A stretch of 64,000 nt of DNA from Ectocarpus siliculosus (taxonomy: Eukaryota; Sar; Phaeophyceae; Ectocarpales; Ectocarpaceae). The position numbers were made by a program, and so were the translations under genes. Location of the stretch: the NCBI GenBank assembly GCA_000310025.1, contig FN649741.1, positions 597,917-661,916 of the forward strand. The letters are read 5' to 3'. Shown one piece after another: positions 216 through 12,300 of this stretch. Positions within the stretch are counted from its first letter, which is position 1. Each line of letters begins with the position of its first letter. The notes beneath the pieces are model-generated. The model ran no database searches. It was not told the origin of the DNA and worked only from the letters and a program-made list of their open reading frames with translations.

Positions 216-2203
216 CCTGACGATGCGCGGAGGCAGGCAGATGTCGTTGGACCTGTTGCTCTTGGTGCGGCGCAGCAAGATCATGTCCAGCACCTCGCGC
301 TTCAGCCGCAGGAAGGCCTTCTTGCCCTCACCGACGTAGCCCGTGCGGCTGCACCAGCAAAGGAGGGCAGCGACATCAAGAACGTCACCACTTATCGTGT
401 CGTACTGCCATCAAAGAGGTTATCGTCCTCAACAGACACAAGTTCGGTAGATGGGACCCTGTATAAAAAGGTCACCTCCACCGCAGTTAAACTACAATTG
501 CAGTGATCAACGTGAAGCTCGCTTGCATATGCCATGAGTAAGTGGAGTCTGGGGGAAGTCTTTGCGTTCTACAAAACAGCATTAAAACACGCGAATGCAT
601 CACCCCTTATCCAGGGCCTATCGTCGTACTTTCGTGCTAGGCTAGCTCCGGACGGACTTTGCGAGACACCAGACAAAGACGATTGTTTTTTTACTGGCTT
701 CATTCTTCGACCCCTATGCGGTACAACACCAATATGCTATCAGCAACCGGCGGGGTTCCATCGACGAGCGAAGCAGACTAAAAGAAGACGATGACAGAAC
801 CACGTTGTGACGATAGGCCAAAAGACTCCACTCCCGGTCGACAAGTCAAGAACTGGCCACCCGAAACCCTAAATCGTCTTCGAAACATTGAATCGAGAAC
901 CGACATACACCAGACAGGCGTCTCTCTCTCTCCCTCCCTCCCTCCCTCCCTCCCTCCCTCTCTCTCTCTCTCTCTCGTCTTCCCAGGACGTGCGTACGGG
1001 ACTTGCACTCACGAGATGGGGTTGAGGATGTGCCGGTTAAAGTTGGCGTAGTGCATGATGGGGGTGTGCCCGCACTCTTCGCAGGCCCGCCATTCCGGAC
1101 CGAACCGGTAGTTGAGGCTCTTGCAGTCGCAACCCTTGCTGCGGCACTGGTAGAAGGCGTGAGGGTCGAGCCGAAGGAAGCGCACGAGCGAGTACAGCTC
1201 CCCCACCTTGGGAAGGCGTTTGGGGTTCGTTATTGATAACAAGGGGAGGGGGGGGGCAGCATCATGTTAGACGGGTAGGGGGTTGAGACAACGCAAGTGA
1301 TCCGGGCGGTACTTCATTTTGCCCATTCCCGGAATGAATGTGATTTGTTGGAGGATTGGTTGCGAGGCTGTGTAGCCCCAGCTAGTTCAACAACGAAAAA
1401 AAAAAGGGGTTGGGAGACGAATAGGCGCTGGTTCACACTGCATCTGCGGCCACGCGCGGGGTTCCGATGGATGAACAATTCGGTCATATGAACAAAACAT
1501 TCTACCAGGTAGTCAACTGACTTGATTGGAGCGACATCGAGTCCCTTTCAGACTACCACACAAATAGGTTTCTAGTTCCTGACGAAGAGAGAAGGGCGTC
1601 GAACGGGCAACAACGGAATCATGTTCTAGAATAGTTCTAACCTCTGAGCCAGCACGCCTTGGAAATAAAAATCAACCCTGTAAGACAGAGACAGAAAAAG
1701 AGACTGCGATAATGATACAACCTTGTCTGAAACGCACCACCTCCCAAAGCAGATCCAGTGAGAAATAGGTGTGGAATGCAACGGCACACGCATACAACCA
1801 CGATGCTGGCACGTGGCGCAGAGGTAGCGTGCGAGGCTCATAACCTCGAGGACCCAGGATCGAAACGTGGCGTGCCATTCTTTTATCCCTTCATTAACAA
1901 GAAATAGATGTAAACCGTGTAAGAGAGAGAGAGACAGAGAGAGGCACACTACACTGCTTCCACTGGTAGTAGAATCTACCACCAAAGCCTTCCTCGCACG
2001 CACCATCTCCCATTCATTATAGACTAAATGAAAATCGCCAGGGAACAGGAACACCCACACGAACAACACCAATGATGGCACGTGGCGCAGAGGTAGCGTG
2101 CGAGGCTCATAACCTCGAGGACCCAGGATCGAAACCTGGCGTGCCATTCTTTTTTTCCTGCTTCATTACAAGAAATAGATGTGAACCGTGTAAGAGAGAG
2201 ACT

Positions 2204-2235
<32 letters not shown>

Positions 2236-2757
2236 GAGGTACACTGCTTCCACTGGTAGTAGAATCTACCACCAACGCCTTCCTCGCACGAACCATATCC
2301 CAATACAGAATAAATCAAAATAGCCAGGGAACAGGAACACCCAGACGAACAATCCCAATGATGGCACGTGGCGCAGAGGTAGCGTGCGAGGCTCATAACC
2401 TCGAGGACCCAGGATCGAAACCTGGCGTGCCATTCTTTTTCCCTTCATTAACAAGAAATAAATGTAAACCGTGTAAGAGAGAGAGAGAGAGAGAGAGAGA
2501 GGCACACTACACTGCTTCCACTGGTAGTAGAATCTACCACCAAAGCCTTCCTCGCACGCACCATCTCCCAATACAGAATAAATGAAAATCGCCAGGGAAC
2601 AGGAACACCCACACAATCATCCCCCAAGCTGGCACGTGGCGCAGAGGTAGCGTGCGAGGCTCATAACCTCGAGGACCCAGGATCGAAACCTGGCGTGCCA
2701 TTCTTTTATCCCTTCATTACAAGAAATAGATAGATGTGAACCGTGTAAGAGAGAGAC

Positions 2758-2791
<34 letters not shown>

Positions 2792-3303
2792 GTACACCGC
2801 TTCCACTGGTAGTAGAATCTACCACCAAAGCCTTCCTCACACGCACCATCTCCCATTCATTATAGACTAAATGAAAATCGCCAGGGAACAGGAACACCCA
2901 CACGAACTACACCAATGATGGCACGTGGCGCAGAGGTAGCGTGCGAGGCTCATAACCTCGAGGACCCAGGATCGAAACCTGGCGTGCCATTCTTTTTTCC
3001 CTTCATTACAAGAAATAGATCTAAACCGTGTAAGAGAGAGAGAGACAGAGAGACAGAGACAGAGAGGTACACTGCTTCCACTGGTAGTAGAATCTACCAC
3101 CAAAGCCTTCCTCGCACGCACCATCTCCCATTCATTATAGACTAAATGAAAATCGCCAGGGAACAGGAACACCCACACGAACAATCCCAATGATGGCACG
3201 TGGCGCAGAGGTAGCGTGCGAGGCTCATAACCTCGAGGACCCAGGATCGAAACGTGGCGTGCCATTCTTTTTTTCCTTCAATACAAGAAATAGATCTAAA
3301 CCG

Positions 3304-3344
<41 letters not shown>

Positions 3345-6300
3345 CACACTACACTGCTTCCACTGGTAGCAGAATCTACCACCAAAGCCTCGCACGAACC
3401 ATCTCCCAATACAGACTAAATGAAAATCGCCAGGGACATGAACACCCACACAATCATCCCCCAAGCTGGCACGTGGCGCAGAGGCAGCGTGCGAGGCTCA
3501 TAACCTCGAGGACCCAGGATCGAAACCTGGCGTGCCATTCTTTTTTTCCTGCTTCATTACAAAAAATAGATTTATTAAACCGTACAAGAGAGAGAGAGAG
3601 AGAGAGGTACACCGCAGTCCTCCTCCCCCCTCGGCCTGCTCCCCGGCCGGGGCCGAAATCGACCTAGTGAGTCCCTCGCGGGCGAACCAGGCCACAACAG
3701 ATAGTAGGCGGATGGTGTCCCAAGGTGCAACTCACCGCCGCGCTGGCTCGGCGTGGCGGTTGCACCGACGGTGGTAGTGGCGAGAGGTGTGTATGGACAC
3801 TGTTCCCGTGGCAGTAATGCGAAGCGGCAAACTGCACCTGGCAACCACCGGCGCGGTGTGGCCCACGAAGCTGGAGGAGTAGAGAGATTCGTAAACACCA
3901 CGTCAGTAAGCACCGCTCGCGGGAGAAGGGAGACAACCGCGGGCACCGCGGGGAGGGAGTGCTGCACCCTCCTCGTCAAAGCACCACAGGCAAGAACCGA
4001 GCTCTGCAGAGATGGACCGATGCGAGGAAACTCGCCGCTCGGAAAATACGGAAGAAAGCACACCCGCAACGCGAGGCGGACCGAGAGAGACAGGAGACCG
4101 CAGCGGCCGTGAAGGTGGCTGCGAAGAAGAAGGCACGGGAGGGCGACCTTTCGTTCGGCACGTTCAACATACGCACGCTCGCCTACAGCGGTAGGAACCC
4201 CATCGGTCACAACGTGATGACGGTCATGCAGATTTGTTCCGCGACCGGCGCTGATGTGATAGGACTTCAGGAGACCCGACGAGAGGGGCAAGGTTCAATT
4301 GCACACGACGGGTGCGTGATCATCTGGAGTGGCGCCCGTGCTGGCACCAAGGACAAGAGGGGCGTGCACGGTGTGGGCATAGCGATCAAGGAGACCACGT
4401 GGGAGAGTGTGGGCGAGGAAGGTAGGACGGTGGAGTGCATTAGCCCGAGGCTGATGACGGTGCGTCTACAAATTGGCCGCACCTGCGGAGTAACTTTCGT
4501 GGTGGGGTACGCCCCCACGGAAACTGTCCGCACCACCGCGGGCGGTGATGTCAACACCAAGGACTCCTTCTGGACTGCTCTCGACGCAGCGATCCGGGAG
4601 GTTCACAGCCGTGACCATCTCGTGGTGCTAATGGACGCCAACGCACGTACTGGCATGAGGCGAGACGGGTGCTGCGATGCCAAGATTATGGGCGCGTATG
4701 GACGCGACATTAAGAACAATAACGGGGAACGACTCCTTGGCATCAGACAACCACCTCTCCCTGATCAACACCTAATTCCGAACACCGAAAGGTGGAGTGC
4801 AGCACACATTCCAGAGCTCTAACAAGGGGAAGAAGAAGTACCGCCTCGACTTCATCCTCATGCGTCAGACGGACAGGCGTTTTGTGCGTAATGTCTCCGT
4901 CAAACATGTCGACTTCAAGGACTCTGACCACAACCTCGTGCTTACGACTGCCCGCCTCCCCCCCCGTGTCGCACCCAACCGACGAGTGCGGGGGAACAGC
5001 GGAAGCAGCCGGATCTGTATCGACCTCGAGCGGTTGAGGAAGGACAACCACCTACGGGCCGCCTTCCAAGACAGGGTCTCCCGCCGCCCTCCGCCCACGG
5101 CGCTCAGGCGGCCAACGGAAGAGACCGCCGCCGATCTCACGGGTATGGTGATGTCGGCCGCTGCCGAGACCACGCCGCTGGCGAGGTGCGCACGAGGGCC
5201 GAGAGGCTGGTACACGAGCGAAGCGCAGCGCGAGATCTTCGAAGCGTCTAAAGAAATTAGGGCGGCCCAACAGCAACTGCGTGGGGCCTCACAGAACAGC
5301 GCCTTCGAGGCGACCCTGAAGGCGATGCTCAAGGCCGCGCGGAAGAAGCGCAGCATCGCGAGGTGGGGAGCGCCGGAAACGTTCTTCGAGGGCTATGTAC
5401 AGCAGCTCGAGAAAAAGGGCCGGGAGGGGAATCAGGCGGGTTTCTACAGGCACCTGAAGATGATCAACGTCGAAGGTAAGAGGTCGTTCACCTCTCAGAA
5501 CATCAAGGACGAGGACGGCAAGGTCCTTCGGGACCCCACGTTTATTCGCCAGCGGTGGGCGCGGTGGTTCCACAAGCTTCTCAACCCAAGTTGCCGACCA
5601 TCGACCTGCATGCGGCTGACAGGGTCAAGCGGTGGCCCACGTGCGTGCCACTCGACGACATCCCATCTCTACTCGAGGTTGAGGATGCGGTACGGGAAAT
5701 GGCCAACAGGAAGGCCGTCGGGCCGAACGACCTACCGGCTGAGCTGATCAAGCTTTTCCTGGACGGAGATCAAGGTCTCCTCCGCGAATTCCACGCCATC
5801 GTCGTGGACGTGTGGTAGACGGGGGACGTACCACAGCAGTGGAAGGATGCCACCATCAAAGTGTTGTTTAAGAGGGGGGACACGATGGAGTGCGGCAACT
5901 ACCGGGGCATCTCTCTCGTCGCACACGCCGGCAAGGTGCTGCTCAAGGTCGTTGCTACACGACTGAGCCACTACTGCGAGCGAGAGGGCATCCTCCAGGA
6001 GGAGCAGAGCGGTTTCCGCCCACACCGGTCGACGCTCGACATGCTGTTCGCGATCCAGCGGCTCCATGAGCTCGCGAGGAAGAAGAGTACTGCGGTCTTC
6101 GCGTGCTTCGTCGACCTCACCAAGGCGTACGATTCGGTGGACCGAGACCTACTGTGGGACGTGCTCCGACGCTTCGGCGTGCCCCCGAAGATGCTGGCGG
6201 TCATTCGCCACTCCCACGAGGGCATGAGGGCGCGCGTCCGAACGGACGACGGGCAGTACAGTACTCGGAATGGTTCGACGTGGGCCAAGGCCTCCGACAG

Positions 6301-9300
6301 GGATGCAACCTGGCCCCGCTGCTGTTCAACTTGTTCTTTGCCGCGATGCTCATGGTCGCAGTGGCCGAGTTCGACAAGGACCCCAAGGTAACGGCGGACA
6401 TGGTCAAGATCGGGACACAAGTGGAGTACACGGGCAAGAAGGGCAGGTCGGCGGGGAAGAAGACGACGGTGGTGACGGACGTGGAGGCCTTGTGGGCCAT
6501 GCTCTACGCTGACGACGCGGCCATCGTCTCGCGCTCCTCGCCGGAGAGTCTCGAGAAGATTATGTCGGTCATCGTGCGCGTGGCCGGCCTGTTCGGACCG
6601 ATGGTATGGAGCCAAAGACGGAGATCATGCACATGCTGCCGAAAGGGATCGAGGAATGTCCGTTCACGGTCAGCGCCGCCGGCCAGACGTACAAGCAGAC
6701 AGATCGGTTTGTGTACCTCGGACGTACCATCTGCGCGGACGGGAAGGCCGACCGGGAGATCACGAGCCGCAGCTGCCGAGCGTGGAAGTGCTACCGCCGG
6801 AACAATGCTTCGATGTACGCCACGGGCCGACCGCCAGCTCAAGATCCGGCTACTCCAGGCGGAAGTGGTGCAGACTCTCCTATACGGGTGCGCCTCGTGT
6901 AGCCGAACAGCGGAGCACTACACGAAGCTCAAAGGGACCCACCGCCAGTTCCTGACACAGGGCATCGGCTGGAGCAAGCGGAAACGCTCAGACCGCCCCC
7001 TGTCCTATGCCCAGGCCCTCATCCAGGCCGGCTGCGAGGAAACCATCTAGGCCACCGTGCGCAAACGGAGACTGTGTTTCGCGGGCTTTGTTATGCGCAT
7101 GGAGGACAACCGCCTCCCCAAGCGCATGCTGCTAGGAACGATGGCGGGGGGCGTGGGATACCGGGGTGGACAGGAGAGCGACTGGGTGTCTCGTCTAGCA
7201 GAGGACCTCGTGGCGTTCAACATGGGAGACGAAAGGAAGGGGGGGAATGGAAAGAGAGCGCCGAGGACCAGGAGGCGTGGTACAACAAGGTCGAGGACGG
7301 GGCGGCATGGTTCATGAGGATATGGCACAGACAGGAGGCGGAAGCGTCCGCGAAGCGCCAGCGCCCGAGGGAAGCAGAAGCAGAGAGTACGGCCATCTCG
7401 GGACCGAAGAGAAAGAGAGTCGGGGAAGCGGCGGTGGGGGGGAAGAAACGTCGACCAGGCACTGCTGTAGAAGCGAGTAGGGCGGCCGACACACCTGTCG
7501 CGAATTATGTACCCGGCTGATGCTGTTGCGCCCTGTTCCCCTCCCTGCTGTATGCTATACTCCTGTATGTCCTTCGTATTGCCTTCGGCCTCTGTCCTGT
7601 GCTTCTTTTTTCGTGTCCTCCCTGCCTACTCTGCCTTGTTGGGTACCTTGATCTCCATTTTGCTGTTGCTTTTGCGTTTATATTTCTGGCTGTCTGCCCA
7701 TCTGCCGCCTCTTTGTTCTGTTGCCTCCATTACTCCCATGCCCTGGTGAGTGAGTAGTGCCTGGTGCTGGTACGTCACCCTTTGATTTTTTTAGGCGGTT
7801 TGTGGGAAGCGTCCTCCTTTTCATCTTTAATTTTATTTTGCTTTATTTTGATCGGTTTCTCTTTTCTCGACCGATCGGTACGGTAGCTGTTCTTTTCCTT
7901 CTTTCATTTTGTTTTTTTGCGAGTGGTTTGTACCCTATTTTTGTTTTGTTTCCCCGCGGCGTCGTATGTGCCGGGTCTTTTCGACCACGGGCTCCCCATT
8001 TTGTGGTTTATAGGGCAAATGTGAGAAACAACAACAACAACAACTGCTTCTACTGGTAGCAGAATCTACCACCAAAGCCTTCCTCGCACGCACCATCTCC
8101 CAATACAGACTAAATCAAAATAGTCAGGGAAGACGAACACCGACACGACACCCCCATCTACTGGCACGTGGCGCAGAGGTAGCGTGCGAGGCTCATAACC
8201 TTGAGGACCCAGGATCGAAACCTGGCGTGCCATGTTTTTTTTCTTTCTTTGCTAAGAAAAACAAGATTAAACCGTGTTAGAGATAGAGAGAGAAAGAGAG
8301 AGAGCGTGCGTGGTACTTTCGCTGATATGTATACCAATATCTACACCACCAAGGGCGTCCTGGGACGCATCGCCTCCAAACACAAATTTAACAGAAAAAG
8401 CTACGGAACGTAAGCCTCATACGAATGACATCAAACTGGCACGTGGCGCAGAGGTAGCGTGCGAGGCTCATAACCTCGAGGACCCAGGATCGAAACCTGG
8501 CGTGCCATGAGTTTTTTTCTTCTCTGGTACAAAAACCGTCCAAGAGGAAAGAGACAGAGAGAGAGAGCATGCTTGGAAATGCTGTCACTGGTATGTACAG
8601 CATAACCCTGTGTACCACAAAGAGCTTCCTTGAACGCACGACCTCCCGCCTCCCAAAACAGATTCAGTAAAAAAACGATGTGGAACGTAGTCATCACATG
8701 CAGGACTGGCACGTGGCGCAGATGTAGCGTGAGAGGGTCATAACCTCGAGGACCCAGAGTTATCACATGTAGGACTGGCACGTGGCGCAGAGGTAGCGTG
8801 CGAGGCTCATAACCTCGAGGACCCAGGATCGAAACCTGGCGTGCCATATTTTTCTCCTTTTCCCTGGAAAAATACAAAATAAAGATAAGTACACGTGCGC
8901 TCGATCACCCTGGACATTCACACGTCCGGTGCCGTCGCCCCGAAAAACAAAACTAGAAGTAGGCCGTTTCAAGTGGAATGGAAGACGCAGGTCTAGATAG
9001 AGACACAAATTGTTTTCTCGAACAATTTTCTCAAACAGTTTTTCTGACAATGAAAAGCCGAAAACAACGAAGAGACCATCACCCTCCTGCGTCAATAATT
9101 GACGCAACAGTTGCACTGATCATCCTTCTTGATGGCAATCGCACGCAACGATGTGTGCGTACCAACACCTGTTCTTGTCATTATGTATCCCCAACCCAAA
9201 AACAAGCAGCGTGGCTTACCCTGTTCTGCAACGGGGTGCCGGTCAGGCACCACCTGTAGAGCGACGTAAGCGCGAAGACAGCCTTGGCTGTAGACGTGGA

Positions 9301-12300
9301 CCGGTCCTTGATGAAGTGGGCCTCGTCCAGCATGATGCGCTGCCAAGAGATCTGGGGGCCGTGCGCCAACGCACGTACGACAGAGGAACAGGGGCCCGCG
9401 GTGTCGAACCCCGCCAACACAAACAAAGAACTCCAAACGCTCACGACATTTGCCAAAGACAACAAATCTGCCCAAATCACACAACTCTGCCGCCGAACTA
9501 GATATCCATCCACGCGTGTTGGCAACCCTGACCCTTAACGGAAGAGCCGTGCGCGCACCTCCTGCAGTACCCCCGGCTCGGCGCTGTCCCGCTTGTCCAT
9601 CATGTCCTTGAGGACCTTGGCGAACGCGGCCTCCTTTTTGGCCCGGGCACCGCCGCCGCGGCCGTTGCCGGCGTCCGAGTCGTCATCGCCGCTGCTGTAG
9701 TCAGAGTCCGAATCTTCGCTGGGCTCGCCCCACTCGCTGTCCGACTCGCCCGCGGCTCGCTTTCCCTGCAAGGACAAGCGTCGCCAAGGCAGAGCAAACA
9801 GGCGAAAATCATTTGTCAAGTGTTGGAACGGTACTTGCGATGGTGGGGTGCGGGAACCGAAAGAGAACGAACAGCAACCTCGTCGGTCCACTCCGAAGGC
9901 AAAAAAAATTACAACACGAAACCGCGTCCTCGATATTGTTTACCTCGAGTACACAGCACGCCGTCGGTTGACCAAATTTCACAGCAGCCACCGCTGGTCA
10001 CCTACCTTGGTTTCGCAGCATTGAGTCGTCAACATAAGCTAGATTATACCGCAAAATAGCCTAACTTCGCCAACCAAAACAAGACCCTTCAGACCAACAA
10101 CCGCTTTTCCCACGGCGACGGGGATATGTTGGCCTCACCTTGGACCCCCCGCTCTTCTTCTTCGTCTTCCCTCCCTTCTTCTTGGTGTTCTTCCCCTTGC
10201 CCTTCGCCTTGGAGATGTCGGTCGTCCCTCCCCAATCGCTGTCGTCATCCCCATCACCCCCGCGCTTCCTCTTCTGCTTCGCGGCGCCCTTCCCTCTCGC
10301 CTTGCCCTTCCCGCCGCGCTTCCCCGTTGAGATGTCGGTCGTCTTGCCTTCTTCATCAGCATCGGCCTTGTCCCGCCTTCCGCGCTTACCCCCCCCCCCC
10401 TTACCGCCTCCGGCCGTCGACTTCCGCTTCTTGCCGTTGGCTGACGGTTCCTCGAAGTCGTCATCGTCATCGTCATCGTCAGAGCTGTCCCTGCTCGAGC
10501 CCCTAGACCTTGTCTTCTTCTTCTTCGCAGCAGCAGCGGCTGCCGCGCGCTTCGCTCTTGGGGAGACCTTGACGCGGACGTTGATCTTGGTGGTGGCGGT
10601 TTCGTCCTCCTCCTCCTCTTCCGACGACTCGGCTGCCTTCTTGCCGGTGGCGGCGCCTCTCTTCTTGGTCGCGCTGCCCCCCTTACCCTTACCCTTGACT
10701 TTGACGTTGATTCGCGTGGTGCCGTTGTCGGCGTCAGTGCCGCCGCCCTTCTTCCCCCCCTTGTCTTTGCGTCTCCCTGTGTACGACGACGACGAAAAGT
10801 AGCGACGCCAACAAAAAACGAGCACAGCGAGAAAGAAGACGACAACGTGCCATGAAATGCTGCAGGAGGCGACCGGAGGGTCGGCGACAGCGCACATGGC
10901 ACACACGTCCTTTCCAGCTTCAGCCGAGATGACAAGTCCGTTCTTCTTCACGGGTAACAACTGTTCCATATTTACAGGGGTCCCTGCGTGACTATACATG
11001 GCACTTGCGGGCCCCCGAAAAAAATCGCAGGCACAGGTGGAGACAGCAGCGGTGCATGTTTCCAGCGAGAGGAGTTGTGACGTACAAAGAAAAGAAGACT
11101 CCAACGTTTCGCCAACCCACCGCAGTAGTACCTTCTTCGGAGACACGTGCGCTCGTGAGCGTGTCGGAGAGTGTTGTTCCCGGTTCTGCCACGAAAAACC
11201 CAGACAAAAAAAAAAAAAAAAGACCTGCACCGAGCAACAACAAACATTGTTTCTTAACCTACGCCGCCACGAACTCACAAGGTGCTACCCCCTTTGCCGC
11301 CTTCCCCTTTCTTTGCGTCTTCGCCTGGGCCTCTGTCCTCTGCGCGCTGTCGCCGCAGAAGTACTTGCGGTGGACGAACATCTTGTCCGGGTACAGCCTG
11401 CCAGGCGTGGAAAACCATGCACGGGGAGCCGACATGCACGGACAATAATGTCTTACAAGGCGCACCTCCGGAGTGGGCTCATCAGAGCATAGTTGTAGAG
11501 CATAGCAGAAGTGTCATGAAGGCGTGATGAAGTAAAGCACGTGTTGGTGTGAATCTGTTGCCATCAGTAACGTTTCCTTAGGTCGAACAGGTCATACAGC
11601 TGACGTGTTATTGACTCGAAGAGCCCAGCGAACCTGAACGAACCAAAAAGAGAAATTAAATTTCAGATTCAGCACAAGGGGGCTCCGCCCGCCCCCCTTT
11701 TGGAGGGGGGCGGGCTGCGCTTAATCCCGAACATATGCGTGAGGATAGTGTAGCAGTAGAAGATGCCAAGTGGTTCAGGTAGAGGCAAATGTAGACGGGT
11801 GCCGAACGAACTGATGTAGTAGCTGAACGGAAGCTGTGCTGTTGTTGTCGTGATGCATTTGAAACCATTCCGGTCTCCGATCGAAAGGAGAAGAAGAACC
11901 GCACGTACCCGTTGGACGCTTGCAGGAACATATACAACAGGGAGATACCTCAAAATGTTGCATTGTCGCTAGCGTGGGGCGCGTCGAGCATGAGGGCGCG
12001 AGACACCCCAGGGCAGGCCAAATATATTCCAGGCCAGTCTTGAGCAAAAACCCGATCGAAAACCAAAATGTGCGATATTTATTGAGGTTTTTTCGCCTCT
12101 AGGCGCCTGTGGTGAAATAACCTTTTTCAATCCCAGAAATAGAGAGGCGCCCATCGCTAGGAGCTACGAAGCGCGAAGGGCATCGGAGCGTCAGGAAAAC
12201 CTAAGCAAGTTTGTAGATAGGTTTATCACAAACGGAGGAGCTCCAGGTCGACCTAGAGACATCCGTTTGGTCAAAACATGCCCCCGGTCCACACTTGGCA

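Follow-up and report, generated by a model that had tools for sequence, protein, structure and literature searches.

Organization of the locus

The DNA analysed here (the window) comprises 64,000 nucleotides of contig FN649741.1 of the brown alga Ectocarpus siliculosus (assembly GCA_000310025.1, positions 597,917 to 661,916 of the forward strand); coordinates below are those of the window unless a contig is named. Near its beginning a RAD16/RAD5-type SNF2 gene harbours, in one long intron and on the opposite strand, a tandem array of initiator-type tRNA-Met(CAT) genes, which is interrupted by a retrotransposon. ARAGORN and Rfam (RF00005) agree on ten tRNA-Met(CAT) genes in the window, all on the plus strand, with RF00005 scores of 50.6-61 bits (E 6.7e-08 or better). 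Neither of the two found any other tRNA in the window, and Rfam at gathering scores found no small RNA gene in the array spacers besides these ten tRNAs.

The full array extends from 1807 to 8847 on the plus strand. Copies 1 to 7 (1807-1878, 2076-2147, 2362-2433, 2630-2701, 2919-2990, 3194-3265 and 3467-3538) follow each other head to tail with a step of 268-289 bp, and copies 8 to 10 (8162-8233, 8437-8508 and 8776-8847) with steps of 275 and 339 bp; the step from copy 7 to copy 8 is 4,695 bp. Six of the ten copies (2, 3, 4, 5, 9 and 10) have the identical consensus sequence. Copy 7 carries T>C at position 20, and copy 8 carries C>T at position 42, which results in a G-U pair. Copies 1 and 6 have a common C>G exchange at position 61, which breaks a pair of the T stem and alters the B box (50.6 bits). 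Thus eight, not ten, of the array genes look fully intact. In addition, a truncated and mutated tRNA copy (8707-8757, plus strand; the first 51 nt with three changes) adjoins copy 10 as a partial duplication. The original prediction, made from the letters of the window, had described ten full head-to-tail units, each with its own RNA polymerase III (pol III) boxes and T-run. The ten units are there and all have a T-run, but the truncated copy had been overlooked and the B box is altered in copies 1 and 6. The spacers upstream of copies 2 to 8 contain a conserved near-palindrome, GGTAGYAGAATCTACC, about 100 bp ahead of the tRNA (for example at about 2255-2270).

The host gene is on the minus strand. 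By exon frame analysis, the region 1207-9219 is a phase-0 intron with GT-AG borders and a length of 8,013 bp. It separates an exon with the SNF2 ATPase motif region, ending in LTGTPLQNR (9220-9351), from an exon with a Cys-rich insert (1013-1206); both exons are supported by the reading frame and by domain and PDB matches. The next host exon (171-348) has its acceptor side at 348, and its frame is open as far as 171. All three exons, the last one from 348 downward, join into one open frame. In the joined exons the SNF2 domain (PF00176, E 2.4e-20) is continuous over the array intron, and the best PDB match of the joined piece is the DNA repair protein RAD5 (6l8n, 1.7e-15), with residues 3-60 aligned across the junction. 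This agrees with the predicted location of the array in a single 8-kb intron of a RAD16-like gene and in antisense to it. Neither a RING finger nor a C-terminal helicase domain was seen within the window; they would lie outside, where the adjoining DNA reads N. Because these parts were not seen, RAD16-like appears to be a fair but partial name for the host, with RAD5 as its nearest solved sequence.

The gap between copies 7 and 8, overlooked when a single array was predicted, is occupied by a decayed non-long-terminal-repeat (non-LTR) retrotransposon on the plus strand (3616-8043; the edges were read by eye and are accurate to a few bases). Seven open pieces on the plus strand were searched. 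Apurinic/apyrimidinic (AP) endonuclease is matched by one of them (PF03372, 5.9e-06) and reverse transcriptase by two, at 2.7e-16 (PF00078) and, below the cut-off, at 1.3e-05; four pieces have no match. The insert ends in a tail of AAC repeats, and the interrupted spacer has its halves on both sides. When the last 536 bp were searched against the genome, the best 40 of 118 candidates matched, one of them being the element itself and the nearest other among them being 90% alike. The order of AP endonuclease and reverse transcriptase, the simple-repeat 3' tail and the dispersed copies are those of a non-LTR retrotransposon. Together with the split spacer they identify the insert as a dispersed, decayed element that is not part of the array. 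Targeting of tRNA genes by this element was considered and rejected, as its 3' end matches at least 39 other dispersed places.

In a homogeneous tDNA cluster, genes of one isoacceptor are less than 1000 nt apart (PMC2888827). Copies 1 to 7 form such a cluster, with one isoacceptor, distances below 1 kb and parallel orientation, and so do copies 8 to 10. Under this rule the retrotransposon insertion makes the array count as two clusters.

Initiator-type tRNA genes in the assembly

The assembly (189 Mb, 492 contigs) was searched in four differently built ways, which together yield 11 full initiator-type genes: the ten in the array intron and one on contig C49. The search with the tRNA core (three mismatches) gave 12 places, namely the ten full array genes, the truncated copy and C49. 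A general initiator pattern of D-arm and anticodon (two mismatches) gave 13, i.e. the same 12 and a fragment on contig C2, and BLAST with the array tRNA returned these 13 as well. A pattern from the anticodon to the T arm (two mismatches) gave 11, the ten array genes and C49. Reversed-pattern controls for the core and for both two-mismatch patterns had no match. The latter two patterns are loose enough that a canonical eukaryotic initiator fits both, and with them no other initiator type was found in the assembly.

The other nuclear CAT tRNA found is the elongator tRNA-Met, present in five copies on four contigs. By elimination, the array is thus the main initiator source, and the role of its tRNA as initiator would follow in the same way. 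Whether the array supplies most of the CAT-anticodon initiator genes was a question attached to the original prediction; in this assembly it does, with 10 of the 11 full copies found. The elongator has G73 in all five copies. Albeit located on four contigs, these copies are all directly preceded by CGTGCGGG, or by TGTGCGGG in one copy.

The fragment on contig C2 (7616762-7616795, minus strand) covers 34 nt of the array tRNA (about nt 7-40 of 72) and ends just past the anticodon loop. It is flanked by two 18-bp direct repeats, an arrangement that resembles the insertion of a tRNA half accompanied by target-site duplication.

Relatives of the initiator were also looked for in public contig collections. 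The general initiator pattern had no match in the viral collection and one in the genome collection, and the array-specific tRNA core had no match in the viral collection. The lone match is a tRNA-rich contig binned as Porticoccaceae, whose initiator (1238-1310) is canonical at 1-72 and at 73. With its eukaryote-type canonical initiator this contig may be a giant-virus or eukaryotic contaminant. Neither Met tRNA of the Ectocarpus genome has the A73 found there.

Conservation of the tRNA bodies and T-runs

Between copies 1-7 and copies 8-10 the mean identity of the tRNAs is 0.989. For the 150 bp upstream it is 0.464, a value that gaps in the alignment of the end units pull down, and for the 45 bp downstream it is 0.440. 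Since the tRNA bodies are about 99% alike and the flanks about 45%, the array genes look selected. The gene on contig C49 has a tRNA identical to that of the array, within unrelated flanks. In the 120 bp upstream, copies 2 to 8 have mean identities to the other units of 0.65-0.71, compared with 0.44, 0.50 and 0.16 for copies 1, 9 and 10, the last value being lowered by the truncated copy in the flank. The end units are thus the most divergent upstream, a pattern expected from unequal exchange.

A run of at least four T starts no more than 3 nt from the predicted 3' end in all 11 full initiator-type genes (ten in the array and C49). In the other nuclear tRNA genes such a run starts no more than 17 nt from the predicted end in 33 of 33 examined, a set cleared of mitochondrial loci, of genes whose flanks were identical and of those with less than 40 nt of flank. 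The T-runs and the conservation suggest, but do not prove, that these are working pol III genes.

Taken together, we consider it likely that the array is the main genomic locus of the cytosolic initiator tRNA, organized as a homogeneous tandem that a RAD16/RAD5-type SNF2 gene carries in antisense in a long intron. Each unit would be an independent pol III gene with internal boxes and a terminator of its own. Unequal crossing-over or gene conversion among the units of about 270-290 bp may have enlarged the array and may keep the units alike, with selection, as supported by the identities given above, apparently holding the tRNA body constant. A dispersed non-LTR retrotransposon would have inserted into one spacer and thereby split the array into 7 + 3 copies. 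Most likely there is nothing more than a passive association with the repair gene, whose intron presumably tolerates the array.

Comparison with the canonical initiator and alternative interpretations

For the eukaryotic initiator the features listed are A1-U72, A50-U64, U51-A63, A54, A60 and three G-C pairs in the anticodon stem (PMC4425011), as well as A20 and the absence of N17 (PMC9362929). The array tRNA has the CAU anticodon, A54 and A60 in the T loop and no N17. It further has in common with the canonical initiator G30-C40, G31-C39 and the D stem GCGC (PMC4425011, PMC9362929, PMC9023262). The predicted initiator type is borne out by A54, A60, the missing N17 and the census of the assembly, but the prediction had passed over a number of departures from the canonical sequence.

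These departures, and several other points, weigh against the array as the main initiator locus. In place of A1-U72, the first pair is U1-A72, with U73, in all 11 full copies. Only two of the three anticodon-stem G-C pairs are found (G30-C40 and G31-C39), G29-C41 being replaced by A29-U41. The T stem has C50-G64 and A51-U63 where the canonical initiator has A50-U64 and U51-A63, and position 20 is U (C in copy 7) instead of A. Moreover, the counts come from one assembly, and copies that are collapsed or missing there would escape detection, as would an intron-containing initiator gene; the genome-wide tRNA family search covers the best 63 of 5077 candidates. Gene conversion could help to keep the tRNAs alike, though tracts stopping exactly at the tRNA would be odd. 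Finally, that the tRNA is transcribed, becomes charged and serves in initiation is itself a deduction.

T1, which pairs with A72, and T73 are invariant over five types of flank (the block of copies 1-7, copies 8, 9 and 10, and C49), which supports both as part of the tRNA. With numbering from the T arm, positions 8-9 of the array tRNA are U8-G9. Elsewhere in the genome base 73, again counted from the T arm, is G in the tRNAs for Lys, Asn and Ser and in the elongator tRNA-Met, A in those for Val and Ile, and T in those for Thr, where one of three strings was misread by the script. A search for primer-binding sites complementary to the tRNA 3' end (one mismatch, any base at 73) gave 15 matches and 15 in the reversed control; a version without a base 73 gave 17 and 16. 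As the primer-binding sites give no signal, U73 continues to be read from its conservation. Because several of the listed features are lacking, the array tRNA was not filed as a canonical eukaryotic initiator.

The same departures (first pair, both T-stem pairs, the third anticodon-stem G-C pair and A20; PMC4425011, PMC9362929) would also fit if the array tRNA were a divergent methionine tRNA with another role, the true canonical initiator being absent from the assembly or missed. We regard this as unlikely. Apart from the full genes, the two loose patterns, with up to two mismatches allowed, match nothing but the truncated copy and the C2 fragment, at zero matches in the reversed controls. 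Moreover, the array tRNA resembles an initiator in A54, A60, the missing N17 and the GGATCGAAACC arm, and it is plainly distinct from the elongator.

Another possibility is that the units are a tRNA-derived repeat, amplified like a short interspersed element or a pseudogene, and not working initiator genes. Such a repeat would fit the recurring spacer with its AG-rich stretches, the truncation of one copy and the loss of a T-stem pair in two others, and the C2 fragment between its direct repeats shows that pieces of the array tRNA can insert elsewhere. The search with a whole spacer, however, found seven other places in the array and elsewhere short AG-repeat stretches (98 matches, among the best 40 of 366 candidates), and only one full tRNA copy was found outside the array. 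As the tRNA bodies are also conserved far beyond their flanks and no other initiator type was found in the assembly, we consider amplification of a mere repeat very improbable.

The nesting itself could be functional. The repair gene would then be coupled to the initiator supply, either by pol III traffic or by base-pairing between transcripts of the tRNA genes and the RNA of the intron. The host intron RNA would indeed carry the complement of ten tRNAs, and with 8,013 bp the intron is long compared with the autosomal median of 524 bp in Ectocarpus (PMC12477816). Yet the retrotransposon accounts for about half of the 8 kb. Introns make up about 46% of the Ectocarpus genome (PMC12477816), so that with two strands about one in four random placements is expected to be intronic and antisense by chance. 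We therefore give functional coupling very little credence, and the predicted influence of pol III traffic on elongation or splicing of the host transcript finds no support in the present results. An artefact of assembly, in which tandem copies were wrongly expanded or put into the intron, can practically be dismissed: tandem repeats are difficult to assemble, but the array lies on a contig of 8.06 Mb, the unit spacers differ from each other, and the retrotransposon copy that splits them has a nearest relative just 90% alike.

If the array is the main initiator locus, a further step can be proposed, albeit tentatively, and we hold it to be possible rather than probable: the set of initiator identity elements may have been rewired in this lineage, with a sole initiator that has U1-A72, U73 and U20 and comes nearly entirely from one intron of a repair-type gene on the opposite strand. 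In that case eIF2, eIF5B and methionyl-tRNA synthetase must have co-adapted. A1-U72 is described as necessary for binding of eIF2 (PMC11231383) and is contacted by eIF5B (PMC4425011), and a survey of conserved tRNA signatures excluded eukaryotic microbes (PMC9023262). In the available portions of the literature we found neither this array nor such a departure from A1-U72. The tRNA sequence, if confirmed as that of the sole initiator, would be a new variant worth testing. The initiator of fission yeast may have a reversed first pair too, which would lower the novelty. With a reversed first pair in the only detectable initiator-type tRNA, the A1-U72 rule becomes directly testable in an independent multicellular lineage. 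Since nearly every initiator-type gene found is at one small locus, tests of the initiator supply could concentrate on that site.

Other tRNA loci of the genome

Clusters of one isoacceptor occur at other places in the same genome, namely Lys-CTT on contig C6, Val-CAC on C25, Asn-GTT on C461 and Thr-CGT on C15. They are smaller than the array, with 7, 4, 3 and 3 copies, respectively, in the stretches read, and copies of the Lys, Asn and Thr tRNAs occur on other contigs too. The seven tRNA-Lys(CTT) genes on C6 fall into a stretch of 15 kb, and one of them is oriented against the other six. Three of the four tRNA-Val(CAC) genes on C25 are in tandem at 287-289 bp, near the unit length of the array.

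Near the end of contig C17 six tRNAs follow one another as they do on the mitochondrion-like contig C295. This run probably stems from mitochondrial DNA copied into the nucleus or from a join made in assembly. The mitochondrion-like contig has trnW-trnM-trnQ and, along the genes, trnK-trnA-trnD-trnV. In brown algal mitochondria trnM or trnI lies between trnW and trnQ in three orders, and for Ectocarpales trnK-trnD-trnA-trnV is given (PMC11354929). Matches to the light-harvesting family in the genome number 87, as suits a photosynthetic alga; on these grounds the genome itself points to a probable brown alga, maybe close to Ectocarpales.

Comparison with known tRNA clusters

The position of the array, which had been predicted to be unusual, has precedents. 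In Arabidopsis thaliana the tRNA-Pro clusters frequently overlap with introns of genes on the opposite strand, and some accessions have two tRNA-Cys genes in antisense within an intron of a gene with a ubiquitin domain (PMC10701932). Given these cases and the intron share of the Ectocarpus genome, the position needs no special explanation: the intronic antisense arrangement is of a known kind, and the array is one more case of it.

The likeness extends to the build of the clusters. Those of A. thaliana are likewise built of tandem repeats, a few hundred bp long, that each hold a single tRNA (in the Cys cluster of chromosome 5 the units measure about 420 bp and are 84-94% alike), and they bear marks of transposons. 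They are of other isoacceptors, and the Cys cases are shorter than the present array, whereas here nearly all initiator-type genes found are in one intron. Tandem clusters of identical tRNAs, including initiator Met, are reported from 50 plant species (PMC12652284) and are homogeneous and parallel like the array, and the homogeneous tDNA clusters of eukaryotes (PMC2888827) are likewise parallel tandems. What may distinguish the Ectocarpus array from these plant clusters is the concentration of the initiator-type supply in one cluster split by a retrotransposon.

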